The notes below the pieces were generated by a model. The model saw only the letters and a list, made by a program, of their open reading frames with translations. It had not been told where the DNA came from and did no database searches. A program made the translations under genes and the position numbers. DNA of 64,000 nucleotides from Reyranella massiliensis 521 (GTDB lineage: Bacteria > Pseudomonadota > Alphaproteobacteria > Reyranellales > Reyranellaceae): contig CAMARK010000006.1 in NCBI GenBank assembly GCA_945860205.1, positions 20,725-84,724 of the forward strand. The letters run 5' to 3'. Positions within the stretch are counted from its first letter, which is position 1; the number at the start of each line of letters is the position of its first letter. Shown in pieces: positions 26,384 to 33,357 of this stretch.

Positions 26384-27265
26384 ATGACGCTACCGCTGGC
26401 CGACCTCAACCGAATGACCCTCCCGGCCTTTTCCGGCGCGGTCGGCGAGACCTTCGAACTGGCGCCCTGGGTGGCCGAAGCGGCCTGGGCGAAGCGCCCT
26501 TTTGCCAGCGTAAAGGCGCTGCACGAGGCGATGATGGGCGCGGTGCGGTCGGCGCCTCGCGAACGACAGCTCGAGTTCCTGCGCGGCCATCCCGACCTCG
26601 CCGGCAAGGCCGCCCGCGCCGGCGCGATCACCGATGACTCGAAGAGCGAACAGTCGAGCGTCGGCCTCGATTCGCTGGGCGAGGACGACTTCGCGCGCTT
26701 CCATCGCCTGAACGATGCCTACCGGGCGAAGTTCGGCTTTCCATTTATCGTCTGTGTGCGCCGCCACACGCGCGATTCGATCCTGACGCAGTTCGAACGC
26801 CGTCTCGGCCACGACGACGCCACGGAGTTCGCCGCCGCGCTGATGGAAGTCTTCTACATCACGCGCCTGCGCATCGCGGCCAAGGTGACGGGCGAGGGCA
26901 TGCCGCGGGTGAGCGGCCGCCTCAGCACCCATGTGCTCGACACGCATGCCGGCCGGCCGGCGGTGGGCGTCTTGGTCGAGCTCTACGAATTCGCCGGCGA
27001 AGCCGCGCATTGCATCGCCACCGCGGTCACCAATGCCGATGGCCGCACCGACTGGCCTTTGATTGGCGGCCGGCCGTTGCCGATCGGGCGCTACGAATTG
27101 CGCTTCGCCGTCGGTAACCATTTCCGCAGCAGGGGCATCGAGCAGGGCGATCCGCCATTCCTCGACATCGTACCTTTGCGCTTTTCTATTGCCGAGCCGG
27201 AAGGGCATTATCACGTGCCGTTGCTCTGCACGCCCTGGAGCTATTCGACCTATCGCGGCAGTTGA
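26384..27265 (+). CDS. bifunctional OHCU decarboxylase / 5-hydroxyisourate hydrolase fusion (cytoplasmic)
   Basis: N-terminal OHCU decarboxylase motifs (RGHPDLAGKAA, NDAYRAKFGFPFIV, ILTQFERRL) fused to HIUase (LSTHVLDTHAGRPA, DGRTD, HYHVPLLCTPWSYSTYRGS). Confidence 0.88.
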   Translation: MTLPLADLNRMTLPAFSGAVGETFELAPWVAEAAWAKRPFASVKALHEAMMGAVRSAPRERQLEFLRGHPDLAGKAARAGAITDDSKSEQSSVGLDSLGEDDFARFHRLNDAYRAKFGFPFIVCVRRHTRDSILTQFERRLGHDDATEFAAALMEVFYITRLRIAAKVTGEGMPRVSGRLSTHVLDTHAGRPAVGVLVELYEFAGEAAHCIATAVTNADGRTDWPLIGGRPLPIGRYELRFAVGNHFRSRGIEQGDPPFLDIVPLRFSIAEPEGHYHVPLLCTPWSYSTYRGS

Positions 27266-27279
27266 GGGAGGGAAGTTCG

Positions 27280-28266
27280 ATGGTGCTGTCGGTTTCCGGC
27301 CGCCGCCGTTTTTGTCTTGGAGCGCTTGCCGGCGGCGTGCTGGCGGCTGTGCTATCGCCTTGGGGGATGGCTCTGGCCCAGCCGGCGCCGGTCAAGGCCA
27401 CCCTGACATTGGCCGAGGTCAACCGCATGGACGAGGCCGCTTTCGTGGCGGCCTTCGGCGATACCTATGAATTGTCGCCGTGGGTGGCGAAAGCGGCCTT
27501 CACCAAGCGGCCATTCCTGACCGTGACTGCGCTCCATCAGGCCCTGGCCGACGCTTTCCGGACGGCGCCGCGCGAACAGCAGCTGGCCTTCTTCCACAAG
27601 CTTTCGGACATCGGCGACAGGACCGTGAAGGCGGAGAACATCACGGCGGCGTCGAAGCTCGAGCAGTCGGTCTCGGGCGTCGACTCGCTGACCGAGGCCG
27701 ATCACGAACGGCTGAAGAAGCTGAACAAGGCCTATCGCGACAAGTTCAACATGTCCTTCACGATCGCCAACCGCCGCAATACCAAGGACACGATCTTCAC
27801 GCAGTTCGAGCGTAGGCTCGGCAACGACCTTGCAACCGAACTTGCCAGCGCGATCCAGGAAGAATTCTTCGTCACGCGCCTGCGCATCGCCGAGCAGGTG
27901 TCGGGTGAGGGAGTGCCGCGGGTCTATGGTGATCTCACCGTGCATGCCCTCAACAGCGTCGTCGGCCAGCCGGCAAACGGCATGGTCATCGAGTTGTTCG
28001 AGATGTCGGGCGAGAAGGGCCGCAAGGTCGCGCAGGCCACGTCCAACGTCGACGGCCGGGCCGATGTCCTCGTCGGACGGCCGTTGCCGATCGGTCGCTA
28101 CGAATTGCGTTTTGCGGTGGCTGACTATTTCCGCAAGCAGGGCTCAACGCTCGGCAATCCGCCCTTCCTCGACATCGTACCGGTCCGCCTTTACTTCGAG
28201 AACCCCGAAGGCAGCTACCATGTACCGATGGTTTGCTCACCCTGGAGTTATGCGGTGTACCGGTGA
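27280..28266 (+). CDS. exported OHCU decarboxylase-like/HIU hydrolase-like fusion (paralogue of previous gene) with changed active-site motifs
   Basis: Tat-like leader SGRRRFCLGALAGGVLAAVLSPWGMALAQ; HPDLA replaced by LSDIG, FGFPF by FNMSF; C-terminus ends SYAVYR without GS. Confidence 0.82.
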   Translation: MVLSVSGRRRFCLGALAGGVLAAVLSPWGMALAQPAPVKATLTLAEVNRMDEAAFVAAFGDTYELSPWVAKAAFTKRPFLTVTALHQALADAFRTAPREQQLAFFHKLSDIGDRTVKAENITAASKLEQSVSGVDSLTEADHERLKKLNKAYRDKFNMSFTIANRRNTKDTIFTQFERRLGNDLATELASAIQEEFFVTRLRIAEQVSGEGVPRVYGDLTVHALNSVVGQPANGMVIELFEMSGEKGRKVAQATSNVDGRADVLVGRPLPIGRYELRFAVADYFRKQGSTLGNPPFLDIVPVRLYFENPEGSYHVPMVCSPWSYAVYR

Positions 28267-28730
28267 ACGGCATCATCGTCCCGGGCCGCCGCGGTCTCTG
28301 GCGCGTCATCGTCGCGTGCGCGGCGGTCGTTGCTGTATCGTTGTCGAGCGGCGAGAGCCATGCCCAAGCAGCGCCTCGCGTCAACGGCGACATCAATACC
28401 CACGTACTGGACGCGGTCAGCGGCCAGCCCGCTGCCGGCATGGCGGTCGAGCTGTTCGCAGTCGAAGGCGAGACCTTGCGCAGGATCTCGCAGGAAACGA
28501 TCAACGCCGAGGGCCGTGCCGACCTGTGGCTCGGCCGGCCACTCGCCGTCGGGCGTTACGAGCTGCGCTTCCAGGTTGCCGACTATTTTCGCAAGCAGGG
28601 TGTCCGGACCGGTGATCCGGCGTATCTCGATTACGTGCCGGTTCGCTTCTCGGTCGACACGCCGAACGGGCACTATCAGGTGCCTTTCATTTGCACGCCT
28701 TGGTCTTATTCAACCTATCGCGGAAGCTGA
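28263..28730 (+). CDS. exported transthyretin-like/HIU hydrolase-like protein (single domain)
   Basis: GTG start overlapping previous stop (GTGA); leader ...VAVSLSSGESHAQA; INTHVLDAVSGQPAAG, HYQVPFICTPWSYSTYRGS. Confidence 0.82.
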   Translation: MNGIIVPGRRGLWRVIVACAAVVAVSLSSGESHAQAAPRVNGDINTHVLDAVSGQPAAGMAVELFAVEGETLRRISQETINAEGRADLWLGRPLAVGRYELRFQVADYFRKQGVRTGDPAYLDYVPVRFSVDTPNGHYQVPFICTPWSYSTYRGS

Positions 28731-28746
28731 GTAGACGGAGAAAGCC

Positions 28747-30183
28747 ATGACCTACAGCGATGTCTCTCTGATGATCGATGGCGCCTGGACGAAAGGCGCC
28801 AACGGACGAACCATCCCCGTCATCAATCCGGCGACCGAGGAAGTGATCGGCCACGTGGCGCACGCGGAGAAGGCCGACCTCGACCGTGCGCTCGCCGCCG
28901 CCGACAAGGGCTTCAAGATCTGGAAGAAGGTCTCGGCCTACGAGCGCTACAAGATCATGCGCAAGGCCGCCGACCTGATGCGCCAGCGCCTCGACGAGAT
29001 TTGCGCGATCATGACCATGGAACAGGGCAAGCCGCTCTACGAGGCCAAGGTCGAGACCAGCCTTGCCGCCGACATCATCGACTGGATGGCCGAGGAAGGC
29101 CGCCGCACCTATGGCCGCATCGTGCCGGCGCGCGCCGAGAACATCTATCAGCTCGTCACGAAGGAGCCGGTCGGCCCTGTTGCCGCCTTCACGCCGTGGA
29201 ATTTCCCGATCAACCAGGTGGTGCGCAAGGCGTCGGCCGCGTTGGCCACGGGTTGCTCGATCATCATCAAGGGACCGGAAGACACGCCCGGCTCCTGCGC
29301 CCAGCTCATAAAAGCCTTCGTCGATGCCGGCGTGCCGGCGGGCGTGATCCAGCTCGTCTACGGTGTGCCGTCGGAGATTAGCGCGTATCTGATCCCGCAT
29401 CCGATCATCAAGAAGGTGACGTTCACGGGCTCGACGCCGGTCGGCAAGCAGCTCGCCGCCCTTGCCGGTGCGCACATGAAGCGCGTCACCATGGAACTGG
29501 GCGGCCATGCGCCGGCCATCGTGTTCGAGGACGCCGATCTCGAGCAGGCCGTGAACGTGCTGGGTGCCAACAAGTTCAGGAACGCGGGCCAGGTCTGCGT
29601 CGCACCTACGCGCTTCCTGGTGCACGAGAAGGTCTATCCCGAGTTCGTCGAGCGCTTTACTGCCTACGCCAAGAACATGAAGGTGGGCAACGGCCTCGAC
29701 GCCGACACCAAGATGGGCCCGCTGGTGGCTGAGCGCCGGCTCCATGCGATGGACACGTTCGTGTCCGACGCGATCTCGAAGGGCGCCAAGATCCATACGG
29801 GTGGCCAGAGGAAGGGCAACAAGGGCTATTTCTACGAGCCCACCGTCATGACCGACGTGCCGCTCAGCGCCAAGATCATGAACGACGAGCCGTTCGGCCC
29901 TCTGGCGCCAATCACGCCGTTCAAGGACTTCGACAGCGTGATGAAGGAAGCGAACCGCCTCGACTGGGGCCTCGCCGCCTACGCCTACACCAAGAACACC
30001 AAGACGATGGCCCAGGTTGGTGCGGCGTTCGAAAGCGGCATGGTGTCGATCAATCACCACGGCCTCGCCCTGCCGGAAGTGCCGTTCGGTGGCATGAAGG
30101 ACTCGGGCTACGGCTCGGAAGGTGGTCTCGAGGCGCTGGAGGCCTATCTCAACACCAAGTTCATCAGCCAGCTCGGTATGTAA
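28747..30183 (+). CDS. NAD(P)-dependent aldehyde dehydrogenase (succinate-semialdehyde dehydrogenase type)
   Basis: [39 protein letters not shown] motifs. Confidence 0.9.
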
Positions 30184-30191
30184 CGGGTACG

Positions 30192-30218
30192 GCCCTCCGC
30201 CGCGATGCGGAGGAGGGC
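30192..30218 (+). terminator. hairpin after the aldehyde dehydrogenase, weak terminator candidate
   Basis: GCCCTCCGCCGC-GAT-GCGGAGGAGGGC, 12-bp stem with one mismatch; no clear T tract. Confidence 0.35.
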
Positions 30219-30325
30219 TGTCCTTCCTGCGAAACTTGTCGCCTCTCGGAACGAGGGGCCATCGGCTTCTCGCCTTTTTCCTGTGCGGACCTATACACGG
30301 TGCCGTGTTCAAGGAGAGCAAGACG

Positions 30326-31300
30326 ATGAAGCGCAGAAATGTCCTGGCCATTCTCGGCAGCGTGCCGGCTGCAGCGGCCTTCAGTGCCCCGATACGCGCG
30401 CAGGAGGCCTATCCCGCCAGGGCGGTGAAAATCCTCGTGCCGTTCGGGCCGGGCGGTTCGACCGACATCATCTCGCGACTGGTCGGCAAGCAGCTCGAGA
30501 CCGTGACCGGCAAGCCGTTCGTGGTCGAGAACAAGCCGGGCGCCACCGGCATGATCGGCACGACCCAGGTCAAGAACGCTGCCCCCGACGGCTATACGCT
30601 GCTGCTCGGTTCGACCAGCACGCTCGCGGCCAACCCCAGCCTCTACAAGCAGATGACCTACGACCCCTCCGATTTCACGACGGTCGCGGTCAACGGCGCC
30701 GTCGGCAACTTCATGCTGGTGAACAAGGACGGTCCCTACAAGACGGTCAAGGAGTTCGTGGCCTTCGCGAAGGCGAGCAAGGAGCCGCTGTTCTCGGGTT
30801 ACGGCAACGCCTCCTCGCGCGTGCCGTCGGCGCTGTTCGAGGTGACGAGCGGCGTCAAGTTCGAGGAGGTCGCCTATCGCGACGCCGTGGCCTCCATCCA
30901 GGATCTCGCCGCCGGCCGCGTCCACGCCGTCTTCCCCGATCAGGTTGTGGGCGAGAGCTATGTCCGCTCCGGCTTCGTGCGCGCGCTGGCCGTCACCTCG
31001 GCCGAGCGCTCGGCGCTGTTCCCCGACGTCGAGGCCATCGCCGAGACCTATCCCGGCTTCAACATCATCGCCTTCTCGTGCTTCTCGGTGCGCAAGGAAA
31101 CGCCGGTTGAGATCAAGCAGCGCCTCAATCGCCTGGTGATGGACGCGCTGTACGAGCCCACGGTGCTGGAGCGGGTGAAGCAGCTCGGCTTCTTGCCGCC
31201 GCCCCGCGACTGGGACATCGCCAAGTGCGATGCATTCGTTGTGCGAGAGCGGGAGGATTGGACCAAATACATCAAGCTCGCCAAGATCGAGGCGCAATGA
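30326..31300 (+). CDS. Bug/TctC family tripartite tricarboxylate transporter substrate-binding protein
   Basis: AYPARAVKILVPFGPGGSTDIISRLVGKQLETVTGKPFVVENKPGATG. Confidence 0.9.
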   Translation: MKRRNVLAILGSVPAAAAFSAPIRAQEAYPARAVKILVPFGPGGSTDIISRLVGKQLETVTGKPFVVENKPGATGMIGTTQVKNAAPDGYTLLLGSTSTLAANPSLYKQMTYDPSDFTTVAVNGAVGNFMLVNKDGPYKTVKEFVAFAKASKEPLFSGYGNASSRVPSALFEVTSGVKFEEVAYRDAVASIQDLAAGRVHAVFPDQVVGESYVRSGFVRALAVTSAERSALFPDVEAIAETYPGFNIIAFSCFSVRKETPVEIKQRLNRLVMDALYEPTVLERVKQLGFLPPPRDWDIAKCDAFVVREREDWTKYIKLAKIEAQ

Positions 31301-31392
31301 ACGGCTGAGGCTGGTCTTTCGCGCGACTGTTAAGCGTTTGTGACGGCCGATGGTCTACCCTTCAGGGAGCAATGCGGTAAGCTCACAGCCGC

Positions 31393-32367
31393 ATGATGGG
31401 GATGGCAAGGCGTTCGGTACTCGGGGGGCTGCTGGCGGCGGGCGCGGGAGCCGGCGCACGCGCGGACGAATGGCCGGCGCGGTCGGTGACTTGGTTCGTG
31501 CCGTTCCCGGCCGGCGGCGGCTCTGACATGTTCGCCCGGCCGATCGCCGCTCGCGCCACCGACCGGCTCGGCCAGACGATGGTGATCGACAACAGGAGCG
31601 GCGCCGGCGGCACGCTGGGCACGGCCATCGCGGCCCGCGCGCCGGCCGACGGCTACTCCCTGCTGGTCGGCGACACCGGCCTCACCTACGCGCCCACGAT
31701 CTATTCGAAGGCGGGATTCGATTTCGGCCGCGACTTCGCCCCCATCAGCGCGTTCGGCCGCGTGCCGTATGTGCTGGTGATCAATCCGGCCCGCCTCGAT
31801 GTTCCGACCCTCGCGGCGTTCCTCGAGGCTGCAAGGAAGAAGCCCGGCGAGATCGACATCGGATCGGCTGGCCTCGGGACCGTGACGCATCTCGCCATCG
31901 GCCTGTTCGAGGGGCGTGCGGGCGTGCGGCTCAATCATGTGCCATATCGCGGCGGTGCGCCGATGCTGCAGGACCTGCTGGCCGGGCAGATCGCCGCCGC
32001 CTTTGTCCTGGTGAGCGCCGTCGCGGGTTACGTGAAGTCTGGCAAGCTGCGCGCGCTGGCGGTGGCCAGCCGCCGTCGCGAGGCGTTGATCCCCGAGGTC
32101 CCTACGGCACACGAGGCGGGTCTTGCCGATTTCCGCATGACCACCTGGTTCGGCCTGTTTGCGCCGGCGCGTACGCCGGCCGCGATCCTCGACCGGCTGC
32201 ATGGCGCTGTGCAGGAAGCGATCGTCGATGAAGGCGTGAAGCGCCTGTGGCGGGAGCAGGGCGCCAAGGTCGAACCCGAGAGTCGCGCCGACTTCGCCCG
32301 CTTCGTCGCGCGCGACACCGAGCGCTGGAGCCGCATCGCCAAGGCCGCCAATGTGCAGATGGAGTAG
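31393..32367 (+). CDS. Bug/TctC family substrate-binding protein
   Basis: WPARSVTWFVPFPAGGGSDMFARPIAARATDRLGQTMVIDNRSGAGG. Confidence 0.9.
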   Translation: MMGMARRSVLGGLLAAGAGAGARADEWPARSVTWFVPFPAGGGSDMFARPIAARATDRLGQTMVIDNRSGAGGTLGTAIAARAPADGYSLLVGDTGLTYAPTIYSKAGFDFGRDFAPISAFGRVPYVLVINPARLDVPTLAAFLEAARKKPGEIDIGSAGLGTVTHLAIGLFEGRAGVRLNHVPYRGGAPMLQDLLAGQIAAAFVLVSAVAGYVKSGKLRALAVASRRREALIPEVPTAHEAGLADFRMTTWFGLFAPARTPAAILDRLHGAVQEAIVDEGVKRLWREQGAKVEPESRADFARFVARDTERWSRIAKAANVQME

Positions 32368-32370
32368 CCG

Positions 32371-33357
32371 ATGAAAACCCCTCGGAATATCCCTCGCCGG
32401 GCCGCCTTGGGTGGCCTGCTCGCGGCAAGTGCCGCCGCGCCGTTGCTCGCCGCCGACTGGCGGCCGACGCGGTCGATGAATTGGATCGTGCCGTTTCCGC
32501 CCGGCGGGTCGAACGACACGTTTGCGCGCCCCGTGGCGGCCTATGTCGGGCAACGGTTCAGCCAACCCATCGTGGTCGAGAACCGGGGCGGCGCCGGGGG
32601 CACGCTGGGCGGCTCGATCGTGTCGAGGGCGCGGCCCGACGGCTGCACCTTGCTGGTCGGCAACACCAGCCTCACCTTCGCGCCGGTCGTCTATGCCGAG
32701 TCGGGTTTCGATCTGCTGCGCGATTTCTCGCCGGTTTGCGCCATCGCAAGCGTTCCAGTCGGCCTGGTCGTCAATCCCGCCAAGCTCGACGTCAAGGATC
32801 TGGCGGGTTTTCTGGCGGCGGCGCGCAAGTCCCCTGAGGTCATCAACGTCGGCTCTTCGGGACTGGGAACGATGGCGCATCTCGCGATCGAGCTCCTGCA
32901 GCGGCGCACCGGCATCAAGCTCACCCATGTGCCCTACCGAGGCGGCGGCCCCGCGCTGCAGGATCTGCTCTCGGGCCAGCTCGACGCCACCTTCCAGCCG
33001 TTCAGCACCGTGTCGGCCTACGTGCAGTCCGGCCGGCTGCGGGCATTGGCGATCGCCACCCGCCGACGGGAACCGCTGCTGCCCAACGTGCCGACCTTCG
33101 CCGAAGCCGGCGTGCCGGATTTCAACGTCAGCACCTGGTACGGCCTGTTCGCGCCCAAGGCCACGCCGGATGAGCCGCTCGATGCGCTGCATGCCGCCGT
33201 CCAGGCAGCGCTGGGCGAGGGCGACGTCAAGCGCATCTGGCAGGAGCAGGGCGCGCGAGTCGACCTCGAGAGCCGCAAGGCCTTCGCCGAGTTCGTGGCG
33301 CGCGAAGTCGAACGCTGGACCGCCGTCGCGACGACGACCGGTCTTCCGATGGAGTAG
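32371..33357 (+). CDS. Bug/TctC family substrate-binding protein
   Basis: WRPTRSMNWIVPFPPGGSNDTFARPVAAYVGQRFSQPIVVENRGGAGG. Confidence 0.9.
   Translation: MKTPRNIPRRAALGGLLAASAAAPLLAADWRPTRSMNWIVPFPPGGSNDTFARPVAAYVGQRFSQPIVVENRGGAGGTLGGSIVSRARPDGCTLLVGNTSLTFAPVVYAESGFDLLRDFSPVCAIASVPVGLVVNPAKLDVKDLAGFLAAARKSPEVINVGSSGLGTMAHLAIELLQRRTGIKLTHVPYRGGGPALQDLLSGQLDATFQPFSTVSAYVQSGRLRALAIATRRREPLLPNVPTFAEAGVPDFNVSTWYGLFAPKATPDEPLDALHAAVQAALGEGDVKRIWQEQGARVDLESRKAFAEFVAREVERWTAVATTTGLPME

Follow-up and report, generated by a model that had tools for sequence, protein, structure and literature searches.

The window, by which we mean the whole stretch of 64,000 nucleotides from Reyranella massiliensis 521 that was analysed, raises the question of what two exported-type relatives of a ureide-pathway enzyme may be doing when the positions altered in them are catalytic ones. 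They follow gene 1, a fusion of an OHCU decarboxylase and a 5-hydroxyisourate (HIU) hydrolase, on the same strand:

26384-27265, + strand: gene 1, ATG to stop; cytoplasmic OHCU decarboxylase/HIU hydrolase fusion (open reading frame, Pfam, NCBIfam)
27280-28266, + strand: gene 2, ATG to stop; twin-arginine-type leader, OHCU-like domain and type-b HIUase domain
27280-27378, + strand: predicted leader of gene 2 by motif reading (GRRRFC, hydrophobic stretch, MALA/QP)
27421-27888, + strand: OHCU-like domain of gene 2 (residues 48-203); KLSDIG replaces GHPDLA, FNMSF replaces FGFPF, the EQ pair is retained
27601-27603, + strand: Leu codon CTT, in frame, at the position of the presumably catalytic His of HPxL
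27934-28263, + strand: type-b HIUase domain of gene 2 (residues 219-328); equivalents of His7, Arg41 and His92 and the Tyr-Arg retained, Gly-Ser end missing
28263-28730, + strand: gene 3, GTG start overlapping the gene 2 stop (GTGA); twin-arginine-type leader and type-c HIUase domain with YRGS retained
28263-28364, + strand: predicted leader of gene 3 by motif reading (GRRGLW, hydrophobic stretch, SHA/QA)
28677-28679, + strand: Gln codon CAG, in frame, at the His92 equivalent; YQVP replaces YHVP
28747-30183, + strand: aldehyde dehydrogenase gene, directly 3' of gene 1 in other Reyranella and the right-hand boundary of the genes 2-3 insert (Pfam, NCBIfam, locus comparison)

The initial annotation had given the coordinates and layouts of genes 1-3 and the positions of the Leu and Gln codons; every detail checked against the sequence and the open reading frames was correct.

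Gene 1 and its surroundings

Judged from its motifs, gene 1 is an ordinary allantoin-synthase-type fusion whose two domains both have intact catalytic motifs (HPDLAGK, EQ, FGFPF, YHVP and YRGS in the alignment). Its Pfam scores are 165 bits for OHCU_decarbox and 113 bits for Transthyretin/HIUase. The cut-offs of these two domains are ~25 bits, and all scores of genes 1-3 are far higher. The corresponding NCBIfam models are UHCUDC (TIGR03164) and hydroxyisourate hydrolase (TIGR02962). By motif reading, gene 1 has no leader, and a leader is absent from both gene 1 copies checked.

A domain search of the whole genome (4.98 Mb) found two OHCU and three HIUase domains in total, all of them in the gene 1-3 cluster. 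The profile search for a PF01014 uricase found none in this genome. The remark that no uricase lies nearby holds locally, but a PuuD-type urate oxidase domain, a full-length match, is encoded on another contig; gene 1 therefore has an ordinary cytoplasmic partner.

Nearly every Reyranella locus examined has a gene-1-type fusion immediately 5' of the aldehyde dehydrogenase gene, with a gap of ~14-28 bp. The spacing in the window is also tight: genes 1 and 2 are 14 bp apart, genes 2 and 3 overlap by GTGA, and 16 bp separate gene 3 from the dehydrogenase gene. These tightly packed genes probably form one transcript; a promoter and terminator scan gave no signal exceeding the shuffled background. 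The wider neighbourhood (26384-33357) is conserved in Reyranella and comprises a transglutaminase-like gene, gene 1, a succinate-semialdehyde-type aldehyde dehydrogenase and apparent tripartite tricarboxylate receptor proteins.

Altered residues and retained folds in genes 2 and 3

The domain assignments of the initial annotation were confirmed with Pfam and NCBIfam for all three genes. Gene 2 scores 119 bits for OHCU_decarbox and 84 bits for Transthyretin/HIUase, and gene 3 scores 104 bits for Transthyretin/HIUase. With the NCBIfam models, the OHCU-like domain of gene 2 reaches 134 bits (cut-off 96), and its HIUase domain, at 87.2 bits, stays slightly under the TIGR02962 equivalog cut-off of 87.45. 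Both leaders combine an RR pair, a hydrophobic stretch (Kyte-Doolittle 2.3-2.4) and an AxA-type site. RR leaders occur in 6/7 exported genes across the genomes that carry such copies, the remaining one having a hydrophobic leader. These motifs point to the Tat system as the probable route by which the proteins of genes 2 and 3 reach the periplasm.

The residues that have changed are nearly invariant elsewhere. The HIUase and OHCU domains from other loci collected in this analysis served as background: the His of YHVP (His92) is found in 105/105 and the first His (His7) in 104/104 of the HIUase domains, and the HPxL His in 117 of the 121 OHCU domains. This background invariance indicates that the changes in genes 2 and 3 are not chance noise. 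The non-His exceptions among the OHCU domains are the N-domains of L166 and L167, L185 and L112. In the Lolliginicoccus loci L166 and L167 (6576-9064), two OHCU-type domains are adjacent and the first reads FPDL for HPDL. L185 (1498-3183, genome G590) holds an unrelated leaderless OHCU/HIUase fusion with LPDL for HPDL and YHVA for YHVP, the OHCU activity of which is probably lost.

The exported copies were compared over three carrier genomes: that of the window, a second Reyranella genome (G084) and an alphaproteobacterial MAG (G445). The alignments show three domain types. The exported OHCU domain (OHCU*) lacks the HPxL His, which we take to be the catalytic residue of the OHCU decarboxylase family, in 3/3 genomes (Leu in the window and G445, Gly in G084), and retains the Glu-Gln pair. 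In the window, this domain matches the family in both profile and fold. Type b, read in the same alignments, has His7, Arg41 and His92 in 3/3 genomes and lacks the Gly-Ser in 3/3 (endings YAVYR, YAMHG and YGVFH); gene 2, ending in YAVYR in place of YRGS, is thus missing the Ser108 position. Type c keeps the tail as YRG(S/T) in 3/3, and a catalytic His is lost in 2/3 copies, namely the two from Reyranella (His92 to Gln in the window, His7 to Leu in G084); the G445 copy has both His and is intact at the listed residues except for Ser to Thr. The description of genes 2 and 3 as exported-type paralogues with altered catalytic positions is thus supported by alignments and leader motifs.

Catalysis in the Klebsiella HIUase is carried out by His7, Arg41, His92 and Ser108, with Tyr105 alongside; they form a symmetric site at a dimer interface (PMC3225178). 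Characterised members of the family have their active site where two dimers meet (PMC2834698). Types b and c retain complementary parts of this site, a pattern that, over three genomes, fits matching halves of one enzyme. The HIUase domain of gene 2, with both catalytic His and the Arg retained and the tail alone missing, is by its residues not a plain pseudoenzyme. Among the options that the initial annotation had left open, that of split-function enzymes gains from the complementary sites, and that of a pseudoenzyme loses ground for this domain.

Predicted structures place OHCU* and gene 3 in the OHCU decarboxylase and HIUase folds. The OHCU* model matches the zebrafish OHCU decarboxylase (2o70) with a TM of 0.91-0.94, depending on the target, and the gene 3 model matches HIUases with a TM of ~0.8-0.86, again by target. 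OHCU* has the fold and the Glu-Gln pair in common with Urad/OHCU decarboxylases (zebrafish 2o70, Klebsiella 3o7h), but the HPxL His is replaced in 3/3 exported copies. For the whole of gene 2, the best PDB match is allantoin synthase (plant TTL, 5z5m), by sequence and by fold, the C-terminal half being modelled at low confidence. Gene 2 has the two-domain order of this protein, with which gene 1 agrees in all motifs; in contrast to it, gene 2 is of the exported type and has neither the catalytic His in its OHCU domain nor the Gly-Ser end.

Distribution, origin and transfer of the exported genes

Extra exported genes between gene 1 and the aldehyde dehydrogenase gene were found in only 2/65 Reyranella genomes, that of the window and G084 (CAMDOT010000023.1, locus L146/L067), which has three. 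When 385 genomes from the class and 399 from the phylum were searched with profiles for OHCU or exported copies, one further carrier emerged: G445 (MAG RBC064, CADEGL010000001.1, locus L117), which belongs to another family than Reyranella and has two such genes. The three carriers have three ARRANGEMENTS:

Window: leader-OHCU*-b, leader-c
G084: leader-OHCU*-HIUase, leader-b, leader-c
G445: leader-b, leader-OHCU*-c

OHCU* is thus fused to b in the window, to c in G445 and to a separate HIUase copy in G084. The three-gene order, the recurrence of which the initial annotation had proposed to look for, is not conserved; the OHCU domain changes its fusion partner. Such swapping of fusion partners usually marks proteins that work together. 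No plasmid-borne relatives of the cassette with more than 60% identity were found, the best reaching 40%.

One further exported-type HIUase fragment lies at a contig end in G005 (L069), with Arg41 changed to Met and a YRGT ending. This genome has two copies of the dehydrogenase gene (L203:4604-6220, L069:4115-5868), from duplication or a mixed bin: one stands after gene 1, with an aldehyde-dehydrogenase-like open reading frame on the opposite strand in between, and the other after the exported-type fragment. An exported HIUase in tandem also has a separate origin, seen in two other alphaproteobacterial genomes, where a HIUase gene stands beside a second, divergent one (L109:726-1693 in G218, the second copy there having a Tat-type leader, and L089:483-1472 in G346); the second copies of the two genomes cluster together (100/98). 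In many Reyranella, a second divergent HIUase-like protein ending in FRGGA, with Arg41 changed to Ala or Val, is encoded, often 12-30 kb from gene 1 (for example L073:1240-1605, L116:5809-6240 and L122:1967-3184). The window genome has none.

In the trees, the exported HIUase domains form one clade (99/90), within which b (99/92) and c (100/92) are each one clade over the three genomes. Pairing the HIUase domains of one genome as sisters was rejected in every case (AU p 0.009 for the two of the window, 0.008 for the two of the MAG, 3e-5 for the three of G084). The separation of b and c therefore predates these lineages, and OHCU* has changed its partner since. A recent tandem duplication within the window genome is ruled out, as b and c each group across genomes. 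The suggestion that genes 2 and 3 act together is strengthened by the two clades and the complementary residues; that they are simple sister copies is not upheld.

In the OHCU tree, the OHCU* domains join the gene-1 clade of Reyranella (98/98 for the two together). Those of the window and G445 are sisters (100/99), the clade of all three is moderately supported (48/81), and the AU test is compatible with a place inside or beside the gene-1 clade. The trees show that genes 2 and 3, as far as their sequences tell, derive from a Reyranella-type OHCU/HIUase fusion gene. The simplest reading would be duplication of such a gene, then export and later transfer.

In G445, the pair lies ~330 bp from a tRNA-Ser gene. 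Both flanks have counterparts in a genus-mate, G178 (84-85% DNA identity), but the intervening block has none there; the agreement of the flanks also disfavours misbinning of the MAG. Reyranella DNA matches the right part of this block at 78%, the part that encodes a Tat-type multicopper oxidase and an enzyme of the xanthine dehydrogenase family. The foreign block (L117:7460-15500) stands beside tRNA-Ser(GCT) and includes the exported pair as well; its molybdenum enzyme is a fused [2Fe-2S]/molybdopterin protein with an FAD subunit.

Within Reyranella, the cassettes are more divergent than their surroundings. Between the window and G084, two close genomes, the exported copies have 43-64% identity. 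The dS is 0.32-0.40 for the aldehyde dehydrogenase, acyl-CoA dehydrogenase, receptor and transglutaminase-like genes and 0.63 for gene 1, versus 1.04 for OHCU*, 1.87 for b and 0.97 for c. From this, the cassettes either predate the divergence of the genes around them or were gained in separate events. Vertical inheritance within Reyranella is disfavoured by these values, and a near relative of the window genome (L135) lacks the cassette. Recombination via gene 1 and the dehydrogenase gene would be a plausible way of exchanging the cassettes.

Possible functions of the cassette

From these residues and trees, a b:c oligomer acting as a split-site HIU hydrolase or as a ligand binder is the most likely reading. 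Our favoured explanation, held tentatively, is an exported accessory cassette in which OHCU* would be a non-decarboxylating scaffold or binding domain and b and c a periplasmic hetero-oligomer hydrolysing HIU or a close analogue. After Tat export, b and c, which trace back to two anciently separated copies and are maintained as a pair in 3/3 genomes, would co-assemble into a transthyretin-like hetero-oligomer. Since the active site of HIUases is formed where dimers meet, a b:c interface would unite the His/Arg set of b with the Ser-bearing tail of c. The oligomer may then break down 5-hydroxyisourate, or a close analogue, arising outside the cytoplasm, and gene 1 would process the ordinary cytoplasmic HIU and OHCU from the PuuD-type urate oxidase. 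In its strictest form, the proposal is of one HIU hydrolase divided between paralogues and active only as a heteromer, in which b would give His and Arg and c the Ser tail, a partner-switching OHCU* scaffold would hold or tune it, and the whole would be a transferable exported cassette; this form we consider rather doubtful.

Several observations weigh against the favoured explanation. The single mutants H6A and H95A of the Salmonella TLP, like Y108F, lose rapid HIU hydrolysis (PMC4324301), and a site with one His92 may be dead. The type-c copy of G445 is nearly intact, so that complementarity is not forced in the MAG. A search of this MAG found neither a uricase nor a full-length PuuD, and a source of HIU is therefore not evident there. 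The complementary pattern comes from three genomes, and a fourth sequence, the contig-edge fragment, combines Arg41 to Met with YRGT.

The main rival to a b:c hydrolase is a transthyretin-like binding role. The cassette would then be a non-enzymatic periplasmic binder of a small aromatic or purine-like ligand, in which the missing tail of b leaves the central channel open and the pocket of the OHCU-like domain, lacking its His, binds without decarboxylation. Altered catalytic positions in all three domain types, with the predicted folds retained, would agree with this role, as would the strong divergence between two close Reyranella, expected with a drifting ligand specificity. A precedent exists in vertebrates, where active-site changes turned the HIUase into a hormone carrier and the Y116T/I16A HIUase binds T4 (PMC4324301; PDB 3q1e). 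Pure binding would not require the His/Arg of b and the tail of c that are retained in 3/3 genomes, however, and the cassette has no fused or associated transporter or sensor; we regard this role, taken by itself, as possible but on the whole unlikely. Improbable to a further degree is that each exported protein is a modestly active periplasmic HIU hydrolase forming a homotetramer, as the Salmonella and E. coli enzymes do, with the changes as tolerated drift. Periplasmic HIUases, as the initial annotation stated, do exist (PMC3528726, PMC9302797), pairs of cytoplasmic and periplasmic copies in one bacterium have been described (PMC4324301), and the MAG type-c copy is nearly intact. Against it stand the invariance of His92 and His7 in the background domains and the Salmonella mutants, by which gene 3 and the G084 type-c protein should be inactive alone.

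Degenerating tandem duplicates with no maintained function could account for the lost catalytic residues and for the sporadic distribution, the full set being present in 2/65 Reyranella genomes. Yet the exported copies have no stop codons, a high GC3 of 0.74-0.83 and a dN/dS of ~0.25-0.33, well below 1 (synonymous sites being partly saturated); the leaders are retained, b and c are paired in three genomes, and the cassette was transferred to another lineage. Intact frames and an excess of synonymous over amino-acid change disfavour pseudogene decay, and this support suggests that genes 2 and 3 are under selection, which makes degeneration a poor candidate. We give still less credit to a joint purine- or aromatic-oxidising set with the exported multicopper oxidase and the xanthine-dehydrogenase-family molybdenum enzyme. 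In the MAG, the Tat-type oxidase gene begins 186 bp after the pair and is followed by the Mo-hydroxylase genes, in the block resembling Reyranella DNA. However, the MAG molybdenum enzyme passes no specific xanthine dehydrogenase cut-off, and these genes lie on other contigs in G084 and in the window genome, where they follow a porin-like gene (contig C80) instead.

Known systems share parts of this arrangement. The periplasmic HIUases/TLPs of Salmonella and E. coli (YedX/HiuH) combine a leader with the transthyretin fold, also lack a local uricase, and are thought to handle HIU from outside or under oxidant or copper stress (PMC3528726, PMC9302797). They are, however, single genes for active enzymes (the Salmonella TLP was assayed, PMC3528726), whereas the cassette has two complementary types and an OHCU-like domain and comes from Reyranella-type fusion genes. 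Comparable, too, is vertebrate transthyretin, a secreted HIUase duplicate with an altered active site (PMC4324301), from which the cassette differs in its independent origin and its substitutions. The open-access literature searched held no report of exported OHCU domains, of the b/c split, of the partner exchange or of Reyranella ureide genes.

The HIUase is the ancestor of transthyretin and an example of an enzyme turned into a secreted carrier. Bacteria appear to have a second, exported branch of the HIUase fold, with a silenced OHCU partner and two complementary-looking HIUase types, and genes of this kind annotated as 'uraD/uraH' may code for less activity than the name implies. Should the heteromer exist, it would be a simple test case for the splitting of a symmetric homotetrameric active site between paralogues; if the proteins bind a ligand instead, they would represent an independent bacterial transition from enzyme to binder.
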